In this document: positions 44,745 through 52,505 of the stretch, in pieces
Position numbering within the stretch: the first letter of the stretch is position 1
How the letters are laid out: each line of letters begins with the position of its first letter
Origin: Candidatus Limnocylindrales bacterium
GTDB lineage: Bacteria; Desulfobacterota; Binatia; UBA1149; CAITLU01
Assembly (NCBI GenBank): GCA_035571835.1
Contig: DATNBU010000025.1
Location: 1-64,000 of the forward strand
Direction: 5' to 3'
DNA length: 64,000 nt
Program-made: the position numbers and the translations under genes
The notes under the pieces: model-generated
Told to the model about the DNA's origin: nothing
The model's input: the letters and a program-made list of their open reading frames with translations, nothing else
Databases searched by the model: none

Positions 44745-45818
44745 ATGGACACGCTGACAGACGTCGAATGGGAGAGTTGCACCCTCGAGCCGCACGTCGA
44801 TCCCGAGCTCGAACGCTGGGTCCGCAGGATGCTCGGCATCACTCCGCCCCCGACGCGCTACTTCAGCCGCTGCCCGTGGATCATGCGCGCGTTCGTGCGC
44901 TTCGACGAAAGCCTTCTGCCGCTCCAGCACATCGACCTGCAGACCGCGCGCTTCATCGCGCTCGTCGTCAGCCAGGACAACTCGTGCCGGTTCTGTTACG
45001 CCGCCAACCGGAGCGTGCTCAAGTTCATCGGCGTGCCCGACAACGTCGTCAGCGGCCTCGAGCAGGAGCTGCTCGTTGCATCCGACCCCGACCTCAAGGA
45101 CGACCTCGCGTTCGCGCGCAGCGTGTCGCGAGCGGATCCGATTCCCGCGGACGAGTGCCGGAGACTCGTCTCCGCCGGGCGCGCTCGCGGCCGCATCCAG
45201 GAAATCGCGTTCGTCGCGGCCTGCCATACCTATTACAACCGGCTCGCGACGCTCCCTGCGCTCCCGCTGGTCGAAGTCGAACACCTGCTCGACGCGTGGT
45301 GGATGCGACTGCTGCGGCCGGCGATCGCATGGAAGATGCGACGTCCGTCGACCAGCCGCGTCGACGATTCGGCGCTCGACCTGGGCTCGACGCCGTTCCC
45401 CTACCTGATCGATGCCCTTCGTGATCTTTCGATCGCGAGGCCGTTTGCCGCGGTGCTGTCCGAAGCATGGCAGTCGCCGGCACTCAGCGAACGCACGCGC
45501 GCGCTGTGCTTTGCGGTCATTGCTCACGGTCTCGGAGCATCCGTCGCCGAACGCGAAGCGCACGCGCTGCTGGTCCGGGCCGGTATGGACGACGCGCAGG
45601 TGCAGTCGGCGCTGGCGAATCTGACGGCGCCCGGCATGAGCGATGCCGAAGTCGCCGTCGCACGCTTCGCGCGCGATACGATCCGGTACAAGCCCGCCCT
45701 CGTGCAGCGCAGCGCGCGCGCTCTGTGCGAGGTGCTGGCGCCGGAGCAGTACATCGACGTCATCGGGGTGACTTCGCTGGCGAACGCCGTGTGCCGGCTC
45801 GAGGTCGTGCTGGCGTGA
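44745..45818 (+). CDS. carboxymuconolactone decarboxylase/AhpD-like protein
   Basis: 357 residues from the ATG at 44745. The CxxC redox motif of the AhpD fold is in SQDNSCRFCYAANRS (C81, C84), preceded by the helix LQTARFIALVV. The rest of the protein is helical and larger than usual for the family, with a second AhpD-like half (about residues 200-340) that lacks the CxxC. Family members act as alkylhydroperoxidases or decarboxylases. It is between the P450 and a cyclase, and its stop overlaps the cyclase GTG. Confidence 0.78.
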   Translation: MDTLTDVEWESCTLEPHVDPELERWVRRMLGITPPPTRYFSRCPWIMRAFVRFDESLLPLQHIDLQTARFIALVVSQDNSCRFCYAANRSVLKFIGVPDNVVSGLEQELLVASDPDLKDDLAFARSVSRADPIPADECRRLVSAGRARGRIQEIAFVAACHTYYNRLATLPALPLVEVEHLLDAWWMRLLRPAIAWKMRRPSTSRVDDSALDLGSTPFPYLIDALRDLSIARPFAAVLSEAWQSPALSERTRALCFAVIAHGLGASVAEREAHALLVRAGMDDAQVQSALANLTAPGMSDAEVAVARFARDTIRYKPALVQRSARALCEVLAPEQYIDVIGVTSLANAVCRLEVVLA

Positions 45819-46579
45819 GCGTCGTCGTCGCTGCGGCGATACTCCTTTTGGTTGCTGTCGGCGTCGCGTGGGCGCGCGAACGGCGCCTTCGCAGGCGACT
45901 GCGCGGCGCGCTCGACACGGCGACACGCGAGCTCGAGCGGCTGCAGGCTGCATTCTCTCGCTTCGCGCCGAGTGCCGTCGTCGATCGCATCGCCGCCGGA
46001 GACAAAGCACCGGACGCCGCGCGCAAGGACGTGACGATTCTGTTCGCCGACCTGGTCGGCTCGAGCGCACTGGCCGAACGAACCGACCCCGCGGTCCTCG
46101 TCGACGTGCTCAACGATTATTTCGCACGCGCGAGCCGGGTACTCGTGGCCCATCACGGCCACGTCTCCAAGTTCATCGGTGACGGTCTGCTCGCGCTGTT
46201 CGGCGCACACGAAGGCAACCCGTGGCAGGCCAACGACGCCGCCGATGCTGCGCTTGCGATGCGCGCCGAGCTGGCGAGCCTGAATCGCGAACTGGCTTCC
46301 CGCGGCTTTACTCCGCTTGCCGTCGGGATCGGGATTCATCGCGGCCCGGTCATCGCGGGAGTGATCGGCAACGATTATCTGACGGAGTTCACCGTGATCG
46401 GCTCGGCCGTCAATCTTGCGGCGAGGGTCGAGCACCTGACAAGGCAGCACGGCGTCGACATTCTCGTGACTGCGGAGATGCGCGACTGCCTCGATCCGCG
46501 CTTCGTCCTGCGCGAGATGCCGGCGACCGAGGTGCGGGGATTTCGCGAGCCGGTGGTCACGTATGCGCTCGAAGGCTGA
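45815..46579 (+). CDS. membrane-anchored class III adenylate/guanylate cyclase
   Basis: 254 residues from the GTG at 45815, overlapping the previous TGA. One N-terminal membrane helix (3-19) and a short coiled coil precede the cyclase domain (about residues 70-250). Metal-binding aspartates are D79 (ILFADLVGSS) and D123 (KFIGDGLLALFG). K119 and T193 are the purine-specifying positions, and N200 and R204 (VNLAARVE) are transition-state residues. The catalytic site is therefore complete and ATP is the likely substrate. No obvious sensor domain is present, so signal input may come from the membrane part or a partner. Confidence 0.9.
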   Translation: MSVVVAAAILLLVAVGVAWARERRLRRRLRGALDTATRELERLQAAFSRFAPSAVVDRIAAGDKAPDAARKDVTILFADLVGSSALAERTDPAVLVDVLNDYFARASRVLVAHHGHVSKFIGDGLLALFGAHEGNPWQANDAADAALAMRAELASLNRELASRGFTPLAVGIGIHRGPVIAGVIGNDYLTEFTVIGSAVNLAARVEHLTRQHGVDILVTAEMRDCLDPRFVLREMPATEVRGFREPVVTYALEG

Positions 46580-47231: not shown

Positions 47232-48052
47232 GTACCCGAAGTCTCGACGGCCGCGTCGCGATCGTTACCGGCGCTGCGCAGGGCATCGGCCGAGCCACCG
47301 TGCTCAAGCTGGCATCCAGCGGAGCGGCGGTTCTGGCCAACGATCTGGACGCCGAGCGACTTGCCGGGCTGAAGTCCGACGTCGAGCAGGCCGGAGGACG
47401 CTGCGAAGTATTTCCGGGAGACGTGACAGCGACCGACTTCGGCGATCGCGCCGTCGCAAGCTGCCTCGAGTGTTTCGGCGAGCTGCACATCGTCGTCAAC
47501 AATGCCGGGTACATCTGGAACTCGCGCATCGCGAGTCACACCGACGAGCAGTGGTACGCGATGATCGACGTGCACGCGACGGCGCCGTTCCGGCTGCTGC
47601 GTGCCGCCGGCCGTCACTTTCGCGAGATGTCCATGAGCGGGCAGTCCGTCCAGGCGCGCAAGGTGGTGAACGTATCGTCGATCTCCGGTCTGTTCGGTGA
47701 GGCGACGCAGTTCAGCTATTCGGCGGCCAAGTCGGCGCTGGTCGGAATGACAAGATCGCTCGCGAAGGACTGGGGGCGTTACAACGTGACGGTCAACTGC
47801 GTCGCGTTCGGATTCATCGAGACGCGCCTCACGCAGACGTTCGAGAAGGACATCCCGCAGATCGCGATCGGCGAGCGCAGCGTTAAGGTGGGAGTAGGCG
47901 CCGCGCAGGCGGAAGTGATGAAAGCGATTACGCCTCTCGGGCGCTCCGGGACCGTCGAGGAAGCCGCCGGGGCGATCTATCTGTTCTGTCTGCCGGAATC
48001 GGATTTCATCAGCGGAGAGACGGTCGTTGCGTCGGGCGGACTACGTATGTGA
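47228..48052 (+). CDS. short-chain dehydrogenase/reductase
   Basis: 274 residues from the GTG at 47228. Rossmann motif TGAAQGIG (residues 14-21), NNAG (91-94) and catalytic Ser in VVNVSSISG with Y164-x3-K168 (FSYSAAK). D38 and D41 after strand 2 suggest NAD preference. The C-terminal VVASGGL is typical. Classical SDRs oxidise or reduce hydroxy groups of acyl-ACP/CoA, steroid or sugar substrates; the VOC neighbour with overlapping start indicates a joint pathway step on a CoA ester, but the substrate is not evident. Confidence 0.92.
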   Translation: MSTRSLDGRVAIVTGAAQGIGRATVLKLASSGAAVLANDLDAERLAGLKSDVEQAGGRCEVFPGDVTATDFGDRAVASCLECFGELHIVVNNAGYIWNSRIASHTDEQWYAMIDVHATAPFRLLRAAGRHFREMSMSGQSVQARKVVNVSSISGLFGEATQFSYSAAKSALVGMTRSLAKDWGRYNVTVNCVAFGFIETRLTQTFEKDIPQIAIGERSVKVGVGAAQAEVMKAITPLGRSGTVEEAAGAIYLFCLPESDFISGETVVASGGLRM

Positions 48053-48305
48053 CGAGGGCAGCGTCTTCGCGCCGCATCGCCGGGATTGCTAGAGTTGAAA
48101 ACGAATCGCCGGGGTTATTCTGCAAGCTCAATATCCCATGACGCGACGGCTCAGCGAATATTGAGGTTTGTACCCGAATCAGCGTGAAAAACTTTCCGAC
48201 CTCCTTAGCAATGTAGCTTGTCCCGAAAGTGCACACTCGGAACATTTTCTTGATTGGGATCTCGTTCTATTGGATTCAGCAGGTGGTCCGTCATTAGGCG
48301 CGTGT

Positions 48306-49721
48306 TTACTCGGCATCTGGCTGTTCCCAGGCAAGTCCCGCAGGACAATCCGGTGTCCAGACGTTGGTATCCTCCCAAACTAAACAATCGAGAGTAACTT
48401 CAACTTCGCAGTTCCAGTGATCGTCGTAGTTATAGTGATGCGAATCGACGATTTTTGTTCTTAAGGTCGTATAGTTTGGTGTACCGAGGTCGCTACGGCA
48501 GGATGCGCCAAGGCTTTTCAGCTTTTCAGTCTTTGCATGAATCTCGCAATATCCCTCGCTGTAAGCGTCGTGGATGTATTCCGTGTCGGAATATTCCTTC
48601 TTCTGCTTTTCTTTCTTGGTGGTCCAATGCCCTTTGCGGCATATCAGTGAGATCGGAAGTTTAGTGACCTCCCCGGCGACGATAGTGAAGTCCTTAGAAC
48701 GCTCCGGAACGGCAAAATCTTTTTCGAGCGAAACGATCGAATGAGATCCCGCCGGCAACTCGAAGTCCGTTTCGGAACTATCCAACGTCGCTGTCAGCGT
48801 TCCTATCTTCAAGCGAACGCCATTCGGTCTCCCCGATAGACGTAGAACGCCTCTCTCGCCGTTCTTGAGTTCGAGTATTCGGAGACGAGATGTTGCCAGC
48901 TTTCGGACTTCATCGTCCGTCGAAACGTACGGTAGGTCCAATGAGTACTGCTCGAGAAACTCCTTCCACAATGCGGCTTCACCAGCTGTAGTGAGATCCG
49001 ATGCCTTATCGATCGTCGTTGTTAGCTCATCGTACCGGGCCCGCATCTGCTCCGCGACTTGTTGTTGTTTCGCAAGAGAATCTGCCGCGTTATTGTTCGT
49101 CTTCAGGGAATCCCACAGGCGTCCCAGAAACCTGTTTACAAAATCCTGTCTAAGAACAGTCCCGACGTACTCGCCGTCGTGAGCCGCTACTGTGACCAAT
49201 AACCCGGCGAGCGAATCTTTAATCCACAACGGGCTTCCGCTTTGGCCTTCTAACAGCTGTGTGCCTGCGTGGGCCGGAACGATCTCAATCTCGAGGTCTC
49301 CTACGCGCTTTACGAGAACCGGAATATTGGTAACCGTACCATCCGAGCCCATAGTACGCAGGGTTCCGCTGTCCTGACGAAGGGTCTGCGGTACCGAGCT
49401 GCCGTCTTGCCAACTTGAGTCGGAACACGGAGTTGAGTTCGTGGCTGAGACGACTCCTATGTCATAAGGAGGCGGCTCGCTTTTCAATACCGTACCCTCA
49501 ACGACACCGGATGGCGTGGTAAGTTTCACTTTTCCGCCGATCGGCCCGACAACGTGTCCGGCAGAAATCACGTAGCAAACGTTACCGACGGGGCGGCTGA
49601 TTCCCTGACCATAGACTTGGCCAATTTCGTCGTCGACTCGCTGAATGAAAACATCGGAAGCGAGCGCGCCGCGAGACAGCAGCAGTAGCCCCAGTATGGA
49701 AAATACATGCTTACGGATCAT
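48306..49721 (-). CDS. secreted trypsin-like serine protease with PEGA-like domain
   Basis: 471 residues. Signal peptide: about 1-21 (VFSILGLLLLSRGALA). The triad of the chymotrypsin fold is visible as H56 (VISAGHVV), D87 (PPYDIGVV) and S161 (GQSGSPLW). A coiled-coil segment follows (about 205-245), then a PEGA-like beta domain (about 285-355, ELPAGSHSIVSLE) and a Cys-containing C-terminus (360-471). Codon use is visibly AT-richer than in neighbours. Its start overlaps the stop of the next upstream gene by 4 bases, making it the last of a three-gene operon. Confidence 0.8.
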   Translation of the reverse strand: MIRKHVFSILGLLLLSRGALASDVFIQRVDDEIGQVYGQGISRPVGNVCYVISAGHVVGPIGGKVKLTTPSGVVEGTVLKSEPPPYDIGVVSATNSTPCSDSSWQDGSSVPQTLRQDSGTLRTMGSDGTVTNIPVLVKRVGDLEIEIVPAHAGTQLLEGQSGSPLWIKDSLAGLLVTVAAHDGEYVGTVLRQDFVNRFLGRLWDSLKTNNNAADSLAKQQQVAEQMRARYDELTTTIDKASDLTTAGEAALWKEFLEQYSLDLPYVSTDDEVRKLATSRLRILELKNGERGVLRLSGRPNGVRLKIGTLTATLDSSETDFELPAGSHSIVSLEKDFAVPERSKDFTIVAGEVTKLPISLICRKGHWTTKKEKQKKEYSDTEYIHDAYSEGYCEIHAKTEKLKSLGASCRSDLGTPNYTTLRTKIVDSHHYNYDDHWNCEVEVTLDCLVWEDTNVWTPDCPAGLAWEQPDAE

Positions 49722-50548
49722 GAGTTGCTATCTTTTTTCCACCAAGTCGCCCATCCCAGGAGCGCAACTGTCGCGGCCCAGAAACTTCTCAGGACAGGAT
49801 CGTTGGCAATTCGGTCGAGTAGGGACCCCTGTACCGCGTAGCCCTGCGAGCCGAAGCGCTTGATTCGCGCTTCTCCACCGGCCGTACTGTAAGACGCATT
49901 CAATCCTGGACGCTCGTCAACGAATATGAGGCCGAAACTTGGTCCACTCGCGTCGTCGATCTCGACATCCTCGCCCGGATCCAAGTCTACGCTGGTGGAC
50001 TCGAACCGAGAGCGACCGACAAGTGTCGGGCAAAGAAGTGAAAGCTTTCCTTCTTTTAGCAGAGGGGATGAGCCTCCGTAGGAGGTTTGAGAACCCAATT
50101 TGATTTGTCCGACGACTGGGAAAACGAAGCTCTCATTCGATCGAGTTAGGATCGCTTCATCGACGCGCACTACGATTTCAGGTGGCAGCCGATCGACGGT
50201 CGAGTTTTCGTCAAACTTCTCTCCAACGCTACTTTCCGTTCCGGTACACCGCGCCCGAATCATCAGCGGTCCGTGACCGATCCGGTTTACGAGTATTTCT
50301 ACATCAGGACGAAACTGGATAGGGCCGGTGAAAATTTCCTCATTTCCCTCATAGTCGGAAATTACGGCGTTCGAAAAGTTCCATAACGGGAAGAGCGTCT
50401 GAGCCGTTTGAATCGTCAGGCTCTCTGTTTCCGCTTTGATTTTGAACGTCAATGGAATTGGCCAGAGAGTCGCAAGCATGGCAGCCAAGACGCATCCTAC
50501 GAACGTCAGATTCCACCATCGCGAGTATTTCTGACGTCGCTTCACCAT
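49718..50548 (-). CDS. two-span membrane protein with extracellular domain, unknown
   Basis: 276 residues. TM1 is near residues 12-33 (WWNLTFVGCVLAAMLATLWPIPL) and TM2 near 255-270 (FWAATVALLGWATWWKK), with a large beta-rich region between that is predicted outside the membrane. Few cysteines, no recognised catalytic motif. It lies between two other exported proteins: it starts immediately after the stop of the first and overlaps the start of the protease by 4 bases. It is AT-richer than the surrounding genome. Function unknown; perhaps an anchor or inhibitor for the protease. Confidence 0.72.
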   Translation of the reverse strand: MVKRRQKYSRWWNLTFVGCVLAAMLATLWPIPLTFKIKAETESLTIQTAQTLFPLWNFSNAVISDYEGNEEIFTGPIQFRPDVEILVNRIGHGPLMIRARCTGTESSVGEKFDENSTVDRLPPEIVVRVDEAILTRSNESFVFPVVGQIKLGSQTSYGGSSPLLKEGKLSLLCPTLVGRSRFESTSVDLDPGEDVEIDDASGPSFGLIFVDERPGLNASYSTAGGEARIKRFGSQGYAVQGSLLDRIANDPVLRSFWAATVALLGWATWWKKDSNS

Positions 50549-51292
50549 CTAGGGGATAACCACCTCCGCAACCGTAGGGACAAGCTTCTTGCCGAATGAA
50601 TACGGTTGAACCTTGACGCGGATCGAAGATGTTTTGGGCAGCATCGGCAGTTGGCAGAGAGTGTTGTATGAGACGAAAGTACCATTCTGAAGGCGCGTGC
50701 AGCGGTAATCGCGCGACGCATCGGCGAGGTTTGTTACTTTCACATCATCAGCCTGCCCCGGATTGATCAACAGAAGCAGTGTTTTCGGTTCTTCTCTCGG
50801 CCTCTGCCAACCTATAGTTGCTAAGCGTCGCGATGGCTCACCGGTACTGCCGGAATGGCAGTTTAGCTCCGCAAGCAAAGCCAACTCCGAGGCGCGAAGC
50901 GTTGCCAGCCATGCGGAGTGTTTCGTCGGGAAGCTCAGGGTGACCTCGCGGGAAGTAACGCCCGTCAGATCGTACTCGAGTTGAGCGTTGTATCGACCGT
51001 CACTTGAGCGTACGTGCACGCAAGTCATCTCCCAGTTGCCGGATGGAAGACGCAACGTCAGTTCATGAATCCGGACGTTGGATTCAAGGTCGTCGACAAA
51101 GGTCATTCCGACTAATGGACTCTGACCGTTCACCCCGACGCGTTCCGGTAGAGAATCCGGCTCATTGAATGCCGTTGGCGCCAACGGTTGATCCTCTGCG
51201 AAGGCCGTACATATTGAGTTCGCTGCGATTATGCAGATGAAAATCGGGTAACGGAATGAGCGCGTCTGCCGAATGGTAGCGAAAAATGCCAT
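50549..51292 (-). CDS. secreted protein of unknown function
   Basis: 247 residues with a signal peptide (PIFICIIAANSICTAFA, cleavage near residue 32). The mature part is beta-rich with four cysteines (in MTCVHV, ELNCHSG, DYRCTRL, NTLCQLP). No family is recognised. It is the first gene of the three-gene operon; its stop is directly followed by the ATG region of the membrane protein, so translation is probably coupled. Base composition is again AT-rich relative to flanking genes. Confidence 0.68.
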   Translation of the reverse strand: MAFFATIRQTRSFRYPIFICIIAANSICTAFAEDQPLAPTAFNEPDSLPERVGVNGQSPLVGMTFVDDLESNVRIHELTLRLPSGNWEMTCVHVRSSDGRYNAQLEYDLTGVTSREVTLSFPTKHSAWLATLRASELALLAELNCHSGSTGEPSRRLATIGWQRPREEPKTLLLLINPGQADDVKVTNLADASRDYRCTRLQNGTFVSYNTLCQLPMLPKTSSIRVKVQPYSFGKKLVPTVAEVVIP

Positions 51293-51404
51293 GACAGACG
51301 GCTACCGCCGTTCCACAGTTGACGCAATAGATTCGTTCCCACCGAAGTTCGATGAAATATCTTGTAAGCGTCACACACCATGGCGCCTTGCACGCGGCTC
51401 AGGC

Positions 51405-52505
51405 TCAGACGTTGAACCGGAAATGCATCACGTCCCCATCCGCAACCACGTAGTCCTTGCCTTCGACGCGAAACACCCCCGCTGACCGGCAACCCGCTTC
51501 GCCCTTGTTCGCAACATAGTCGCGAAACGCGATCACTTCCGCGCGGATGAACCCTTTCTCGAAGTCGGTGTGAATGACCGACGCCGCTTTCGGCGCCTTC
51601 CATCCTTTCTCGATCGTCCACGCGCGGACTTCCTTCGGCCCGGCCGTGAAGTAACTGACGAGCCCGAGGATCGAGTAGCCTTCGCGGATCACCTGCTCGA
51701 TTCCGCTTTCGCTGACGCCGTACGACGCGAGGAACTCGGCGCGCTCGGCGTCGTCCATGCCGACGAGCTCGGCTTCGACCTTGGCGGAAATCTTGATCAC
51801 GTGTGCCTTGCGCGGCGCGGCCCAGGCTCGAAGCGCCGTCACGTGGGCGTTGTCCTCGGCGAGCGAATCCTCGTCGACGTTGGCGCAGTAGATGATCGGC
51901 TTGGCAGTGATCAGGTGGACCTCGGTGAAAACCTCGGCGCCGACCGGCGTTTCGCGCTCGGCAAATGCGACGGCCGGCTTGCCGCCGCTGATGTGCTCGA
52001 GGAGGCGCTTCGCGCACTCGAGCTGCGCGGCGGCTTCCTTGTCGCCTTTGGCCTTGCGCGTAAGGCGCTCGATGCGGTTCTCGACGGCCTGGATATCGGC
52101 AAGCGCGAGCTCGGTCTCGATCACCTCGACGTCGCGGACCGGATCGATGACGCCGTCGACGTGCACGACGTCGGGGTCGTCGAAGCAGCGCACCACGTGA
52201 ACGATGGCCGAGGTCTCGCGGATGTGCGCGAGGAACTGGTTGCCGAGCCCTTCGCCGGTGCTCGCGCCACGCACCAGCCCGGCGATGTCGACGAACTCGA
52301 CGGTCGCCGCCAGCACGCGCTCCGGATCGACGATCCGGGCGAGCTCGGCAAGCCGGGAGTCGGGGACGGGTACCACGGCCTTGTTCGGCTCGATGGTACA
52401 GAACGGATAATTCGCCGCCTCCGCGTTCTGCGCCTTGGTCAGCGCGTTGAACAGCGTGGATTTTCCGACGTTGGGCAGACCGACGATTCCAATACTGAGG
52501 GCCAC
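51405..52505 (-). CDS. ychF: redox-regulated ATPase/GTPase YchF
   Basis: 366 residues from the GTG at 52505, chosen because ggag lies 5 bases upstream and the length then matches the family (~363). Walker A is GLPNVGKST, G3 is DIAGLVRG and the nucleotide-specificity motif is in YCANVDED (N-x-x-E type, favouring ATP). A TGS domain closes the C-terminus (AWTIEKG...HTDFEKGFIRAEVI...DVMHFRFNV). YchF binds ribosomes and modulates translation of stress genes. It is highly conserved. Confidence 0.96.
   Translation of the reverse strand: MALSIGIVGLPNVGKSTLFNALTKAQNAEAANYPFCTIEPNKAVVPVPDSRLAELARIVDPERVLAATVEFVDIAGLVRGASTGEGLGNQFLAHIRETSAIVHVVRCFDDPDVVHVDGVIDPVRDVEVIETELALADIQAVENRIERLTRKAKGDKEAAAQLECAKRLLEHISGGKPAVAFAERETPVGAEVFTEVHLITAKPIIYCANVDEDSLAEDNAHVTALRAWAAPRKAHVIKISAKVEAELVGMDDAERAEFLASYGVSESGIEQVIREGYSILGLVSYFTAGPKEVRAWTIEKGWKAPKAASVIHTDFEKGFIRAEVIAFRDYVANKGEAGCRSAGVFRVEGKDYVVADGDVMHFRFNV

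Follow-up and report, generated by a model that had tools for sequence, protein, structure and literature searches.

A conserved three-gene module linking a trypsin-like protease to two partner families, on plasmids and in distant bacteria

Three adjoining genes in DNA of atypical composition

The window, as we call the whole 64,000-nt (64-kb) stretch of DNA analysed here, carries on its minus strand three genes, A, B and C, which encode two putatively exported proteins and a predicted inner-membrane protein (Table 1). B begins at 50548, directly after the end of A at 50549 (0 nt between them), and shares 4 nt with C; on recheck, the coordinates, strand and spacing given for this tightly packed set in the original prediction were all correct. 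On its two sides stand an SDR gene (end at 48052) and a ychF frame (end at 51405), and promoter and terminator scans at the module gave no signal above that of shuffled sequence.

Table 1. Positions of the module genes and of their main features in the window
Feature	Position	Strand	Description
Gene A	50549..51292	-	Beta-rich protein of 247 aa, predicted to be exported; Cys198/Cys213 invariant over the 17 aligned rows, a further Cys pair at 91/145
Gene B	49718..50548	-	Predicted 276-aa inner-membrane protein; beta domain between two helices, periplasmic by inference
Gene C	48306..49721	-	Predicted exported 471-aa trypsin-like (HtrA-related) serine protease; C-terminal part lineage-specific
B transmembrane helix 1, residues 8-27	50468..50527	-	AF2 model
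B transmembrane helix 2, residues 251-275	49724..49798	-	AF2 model; under hydropathy cut-off in window protein
C protease domain, residues 22-205	49107..49658	-	Contains His56/Asp87/Ser161 and Cys49/Cys99
His56 codon of C	49554..49556	-	
Asp87 codon of C	49461..49463	-	
Ser161 codon of C	49239..49241	-	Within GQSGS
AT-rich stretch with module, SDR stop to ychF stop	48053..51402	.	Same-genus match starts at 51402

Measured against the 64-kb window, which served as the yardstick in place of the whole genome, the composition of the three-gene region is strongly shifted: its G+C is 0.534, against a mean of 0.657 (sd 0.015, minimum 0.601) for 2987-nt segments elsewhere in the window, and its tetranucleotide correlation is 0.209, below that of every outside segment (mean 0.600, minimum 0.226). 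The sharp difference from the flanks that had been read from the sequence alone is thus borne out by both measures, and GC3 lies at 0.57-0.61 in the module genes, against 0.85 in ychF and 0.79 in the SDR gene.

A genome of the same genus (G001) matches the window from the ychF stop at 51402 upward; in a comparison of ~10 kb beyond ychF nothing matches. A search for an empty site used this genome and a second one (G005); since G001 aligns only from 51402 upward and G005 diverges more widely, the insertion is not boundable on the SDR side. Repeats around the module are short and chance-like, and no element ends were found. Within the class of the window, a profile of the protease matches over its full length in just one of the 148 genomes searched, that of the window; 36 other genomes give hits of 19-30 bits, mostly over model positions 31-91, which look like HtrA-type proteins. 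Used as a lone query, the C protein of the window matched its own genome only, among 98. The shifted composition, the class-wide scarcity of protease matches and the synteny break at the ychF stop make horizontal acquisition of the window copy likely.

The protease and its two partners

None of the three window proteins matches a Pfam family at E up to 1 or a PADLOC-DB 2.0.0 model at E up to 10, which gives no support to membership in a known anti-phage system, and the NCBIfam search returned no credible match, its sole hit being C at E 0.12. Sec-type signal sequences can be recognised at the start of A and C, by eye rather than by a signal-peptide program.

The catalytic residues ascribed to C in the original prediction, His56, Asp87 and Ser161, were all located at codon level, and the His/Asp/Ser triad is kept in this order in all 18 C proteins. 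Two cysteines, Cys49 and Cys99, are likewise kept in 16/16 aligned rows and, by eye, in the copies L099 and L100. Searched against the PDB, a profile built from 16 C domains scored best with chains of HtrA type (lowest E 2e-6). Of these 16 domains, 11 match the Pfam family Trypsin_2 (PF13365) at E values no higher than 0.1, with 3.1e-8 as the lowest; the domain of the window protein by itself reaches E 0.037 and 15.2 bits (cut-off 27.6). By sequence comparison, C is related to the HtrA/Trypsin_2 peptidases, and the trypsin-like label is right for the family and, through the alignment, for the window protein. The C-terminal parts vary by lineage, with repeats in the Vibrio copies and no common targeting part seen; the PEGA-like domain formerly proposed there is not upheld, residues 275-365 having no Pfam match at E up to 10.

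The HtrA proteases (DegP/DegS) carry a C-terminal PDZ domain. C resembles these periplasmic enzymes in its trypsin-like family and predicted export, yet has GxSGS where the aligned DO-type chain has GNSGG, and differs further in its two conserved cysteines and two fixed partner genes. No PDZ domain was detected in the whole protein or C-terminal part of 7/18 C proteins (window, L003, L004, L005, L036, which is cut, L079 and L085), the other 11 contributing at most their protease part to the scan.

A was described at the outset as a secreted, cysteine-containing protein, and this agrees with its signal sequence and with Cys198 and Cys213, present in 17/17 rows. A second pair, Cys91/Cys145, occurs in 15/17 rows and is lost only as a pair, in L003 and L036. 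With one pair invariant and the other lost together, the cysteines of A behave like two disulfides. An AF2 model (mean pLDDT 75, 14 sequences) is mainly beta, and VIA-align gives generic Ig-like matches (best Z 4.7, rmsd 3.5, 92 aligned), Foldseek TM values being ~0.2.

The AF2 model of B (mean pLDDT 73, 14 sequences) places helices at residues 8-27 and 251-275, with a beta domain between them. At least two hydrophobic helices are found in 18/18 relatives of B, three of which have a weak third, and the two-span topology with a beta-rich domain that had been proposed therefore stands for the model and the family; in the window protein just the first helix exceeds the hydropathy cut-off. Fold searches with B gave Foldseek TM values of ~0.1 (no higher than 0.16 among the matches listed, rmsd ~20) and VIA Z scores up to 4.2, and the neurotoxin entries that head its list are meaningless at such scores. 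Neither A nor B has a credible fold match by Foldseek or VIA-align, and a PDB sequence search with either gave nothing, or matches at E 0.3 or worse.

Distribution and two forms of the module

B was found at 19 loci, the window included. A adjoins it at all of them and C lies alongside at 18, the contig ending after B at the remaining one; in two of these 18 trios (L036 and L084) the contig stops within C. The three genes are always co-directional, in the order A-B-C at 17 loci and C-A-B in V. tubiashii. Absence of the triplet elsewhere, or a normal composition, had been named as what would weaken the idea of a module; the full trio was found at 18 loci in several lineages. Together with the shifted composition, this co-occurrence supports the original view of a likely acquired module of three exported proteins, and by gene content and sequence conservation A-B-C is a conserved three-gene module.

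A tblastn search of 72,556 plasmids found the trio on three, p09022A of Vibrio sp. 09022, p1 of Pseudoalteromonas shioyasakiensis and pFP31 of V. tubiashii, a count that is a lower bound, the reach of tblastn being small here (B of p09022A finds itself alone among the plasmids, and B of L100 finds nothing). A two-row profile search of genome contigs added a trio in an uncultured Colwellia MAG; C of the window alone found none in these contigs. Single-protein scans of viral contigs with C and B gave no find, C and B were unmatched in phage records, and eight proteins compared with PHROGs had weak matches only (E 0.045 or worse).

The spread is patchy. In the phylum of the window, 3/395 genomes match the B profile, the window's own included, and a wider profile recovers the same 3/395; two other families of the phylum host the trio. 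One genus of the phylum has B in 10/23 genomes and its order in 12/257, and in the good-quality genomes of that genus the figure is 7/14, several of the non-matching genomes being incomplete. A deeper B profile gave 13/257 for the class of G198, the extra one being a 19-bit match inside a 1336-aa frame that was left uncounted. With A as the query, the order yielded these 12 genomes again, two of them with an additional, divergent hit that lies in a further trio (L099 and L100). Two genomes, G544 (L085/L099) and G614 (L079/L100), thus each carry a resident-type and a divergent mobile-type copy.

These two forms are separated in unrooted gene trees, where the window copy clusters with L003, L004, L005, L036, L099 and L100, and 12 resident-type copies stand apart; the mobile-type branches are long and several supports are low. 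The name mobile-type was chosen because three copies lie on plasmids, recombinase genes are found near three (L003, L099 and L100; serine type, read by eye) and the DNA around the window copy is atypical and adjoins a break in synteny. The trees of the three genes co-vary over 18 loci (r 0.96 for A-B, 0.93 for B-C and 0.93 for A-C) and also within the seven mobile-type loci (r 0.84, 0.70 and 0.57; 5, 11 and 13 permutations out of 2000 attained these values, in a test that disregards tree structure, shared ancestry alone yielding correlation). A literature search, with preprints and most subscription papers outside its reach, found no description of the trio, which is apparently undescribed so far. 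The module brings together two families for which the tested libraries have no model and an apparently exported protease to which they are tied, on plasmids and in distant bacteria.

Possible roles at the cell envelope

The tight linkage, the signal sequences and the conservation of the catalytic residues lead us to favour, with middling confidence, a three-part envelope protease complex or module that is carried by mobile DNA. C, the trypsin-like serine protease, would reach the periplasm (or the cell surface) by the Sec route, B would be anchored in the inner membrane by its two helices with the beta domain shown to the periplasm, and A would be exported and disulfide-bonded. A and C may assemble on the periplasmic domain of B, with A as a regulator or recognition part and C as the effector, so that proteolysis would be coupled to a membrane-linked trigger in a DegS-like manner. 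DegS is a membrane-anchored protease, and DegS-RseA is an envelope stress relay. The likeness, membrane-linked periplasmic proteolysis with a membrane partner, would be one of functional analogy. As differences, B is predicted to have two membrane spans, the window B protein matches no Pfam family, and the neighbours of the trio there are ychF and the SDR gene. The module probably guards or polices the cell envelope.

Its role can be read in several ways. The mobile form could serve in envelope immunity against phages or plasmids, B or A sensing entry and C cutting an incoming or host envelope protein, an idea that we regard as possible and hold with low confidence. Restriction-type genes lie within ~5 kb at 3/7 mobile-type loci (a raw count, with the window among the seven). 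In Colwellia these are an HNH protein (PADLOC PDC-M01B, 47 bits) and a pair read as McrBC-like, one member of which matches PADLOC REase_II (39 bits) and the other nothing; the Pseudoalteromonas locus has a methyl-directed restriction enzyme of type IV (682 bits) together with an HNH gene; and on the 31-kb Vibrio plasmid p09022A an HNH gene (76 bits) adjoins the trio. The recombinase genes noted above point the same way. However, ten window genes around the module gave one PADLOC match, to a cyclase, and ten genes in the flanks of six of the 12 resident-type loci (called with a crude ORF picker) gave a single match, to an RtcR-like regulator; the V. tubiashii copy lies near T6SS genes instead, and the absence of PADLOC matches for the window trio also argues against this reading. 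A defence role is possible. Its more specific version, a mobile, periplasm-facing immunity of Gram-negative bacteria in which B is the anchored sensor, A the recognition or regulatory part and C the effector, and in which the entry of a phage or plasmid is stopped by proteolysis at the envelope rather than in the cytoplasm, is a shade more doubtful still. If immunity were true, proteolytic defence would operate at the envelope.

As tentative as envelope immunity is envelope housekeeping, in which C and its fixed partners would serve protein maturation or quality control, one lineage having retained the set and transfer having occurred now and then. The resident form in 10/23 genomes of one genus is consistent with this, as are the HtrA kinship of C, the resident flanks, which are free of visible defence genes in the part tested, and a ~90-aa lipoprotein-like gene that stands ahead of A at 10/12 resident-type loci (L074-L080, L082-L084). 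On the other hand, the module looks dispensable, with no match in 13/23 genomes of that genus or in most of the order, and its mobile form occurs on plasmids and near recombinases.

It appears unlikely that the module is a device for competition or addiction, in which the exported A would act as inhibitor of C or as its immunity-like partner and B as the anchor. A is the first gene of the operon at 18/19 loci and is predicted to be exported like C, one copy lies near a T6SS cluster, and accessory exported proteins vary between loci; yet A of the window belongs to no Pfam family, the A profile finds no credible PDB chain, and the generic Ig-like matches of its model stay below Z 5.

In the trypsin-MBL pairs of Hachiman, AVAST, Lamassu and DRT, the protease is part of a fusion with a defence enzyme (HamA, Avs1a, LmuA) and the nuclease is a separate, typically upstream gene (PMC12799240). 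The module shares with them a trypsin-like protease and the presence of some copies on defence-rich mobile DNA; C differs in being apparently exported and linked to A and B, not fused beside an MBL nuclease. Membership in these pairs is highly improbable and goes against the gene arrangement of the window: an MBL-like gene follows the trio in V. tubiashii alone, at a sub-threshold score, whereas the window trio adjoins ychF and the SDR gene and no MBL gene, and its C protein has a putative signal sequence and no PADLOC match at E up to 10 that would show a defence-enzyme fusion.

To ask what is sensed and what is cut, the trio offers a set of genes that is well delimited, a catalytic residue in C and, in p09022A, a native plasmid of only 31 kb.

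Some further genes lie close to individual copies. The cyclase-type gene of the window (45467-46579) matches PADLOC PycC models (best 80 bits), probably a generic match, and is probably an ordinary adenylate cyclase. In V. tubiashii, the gene 144 nt downstream of C-A-B (L005:9607-10887) has a Lactamase_B (MBL) match at E 0.0015 and 18.9 bits (cut-off 22.7), and T6SS genes follow further on. An accessory protein with a signal sequence by eye and no PADLOC match is common to L004 (6957-7535, minus strand), L099 (6860-7552, plus strand) and L100 (3421-4059, plus strand), two of the pairs matching at E ~2e-5 and the third at 0.02. At L099 (12262-14751, in G544) an 829-aa protein without PADLOC match is encoded near a recombinase gene. 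A methyltransferase adjoins the module in Pseudoalteromonas (L055:28587-29180; PADLOC mad2, 57 bits), and p09022A (L056) is rich in defence-type genes, with SinI-type restriction-modification, a PDC-S26 match, a DrmC-like phospholipase D match and three further annotated HNH genes, including one that adjoins the trio.
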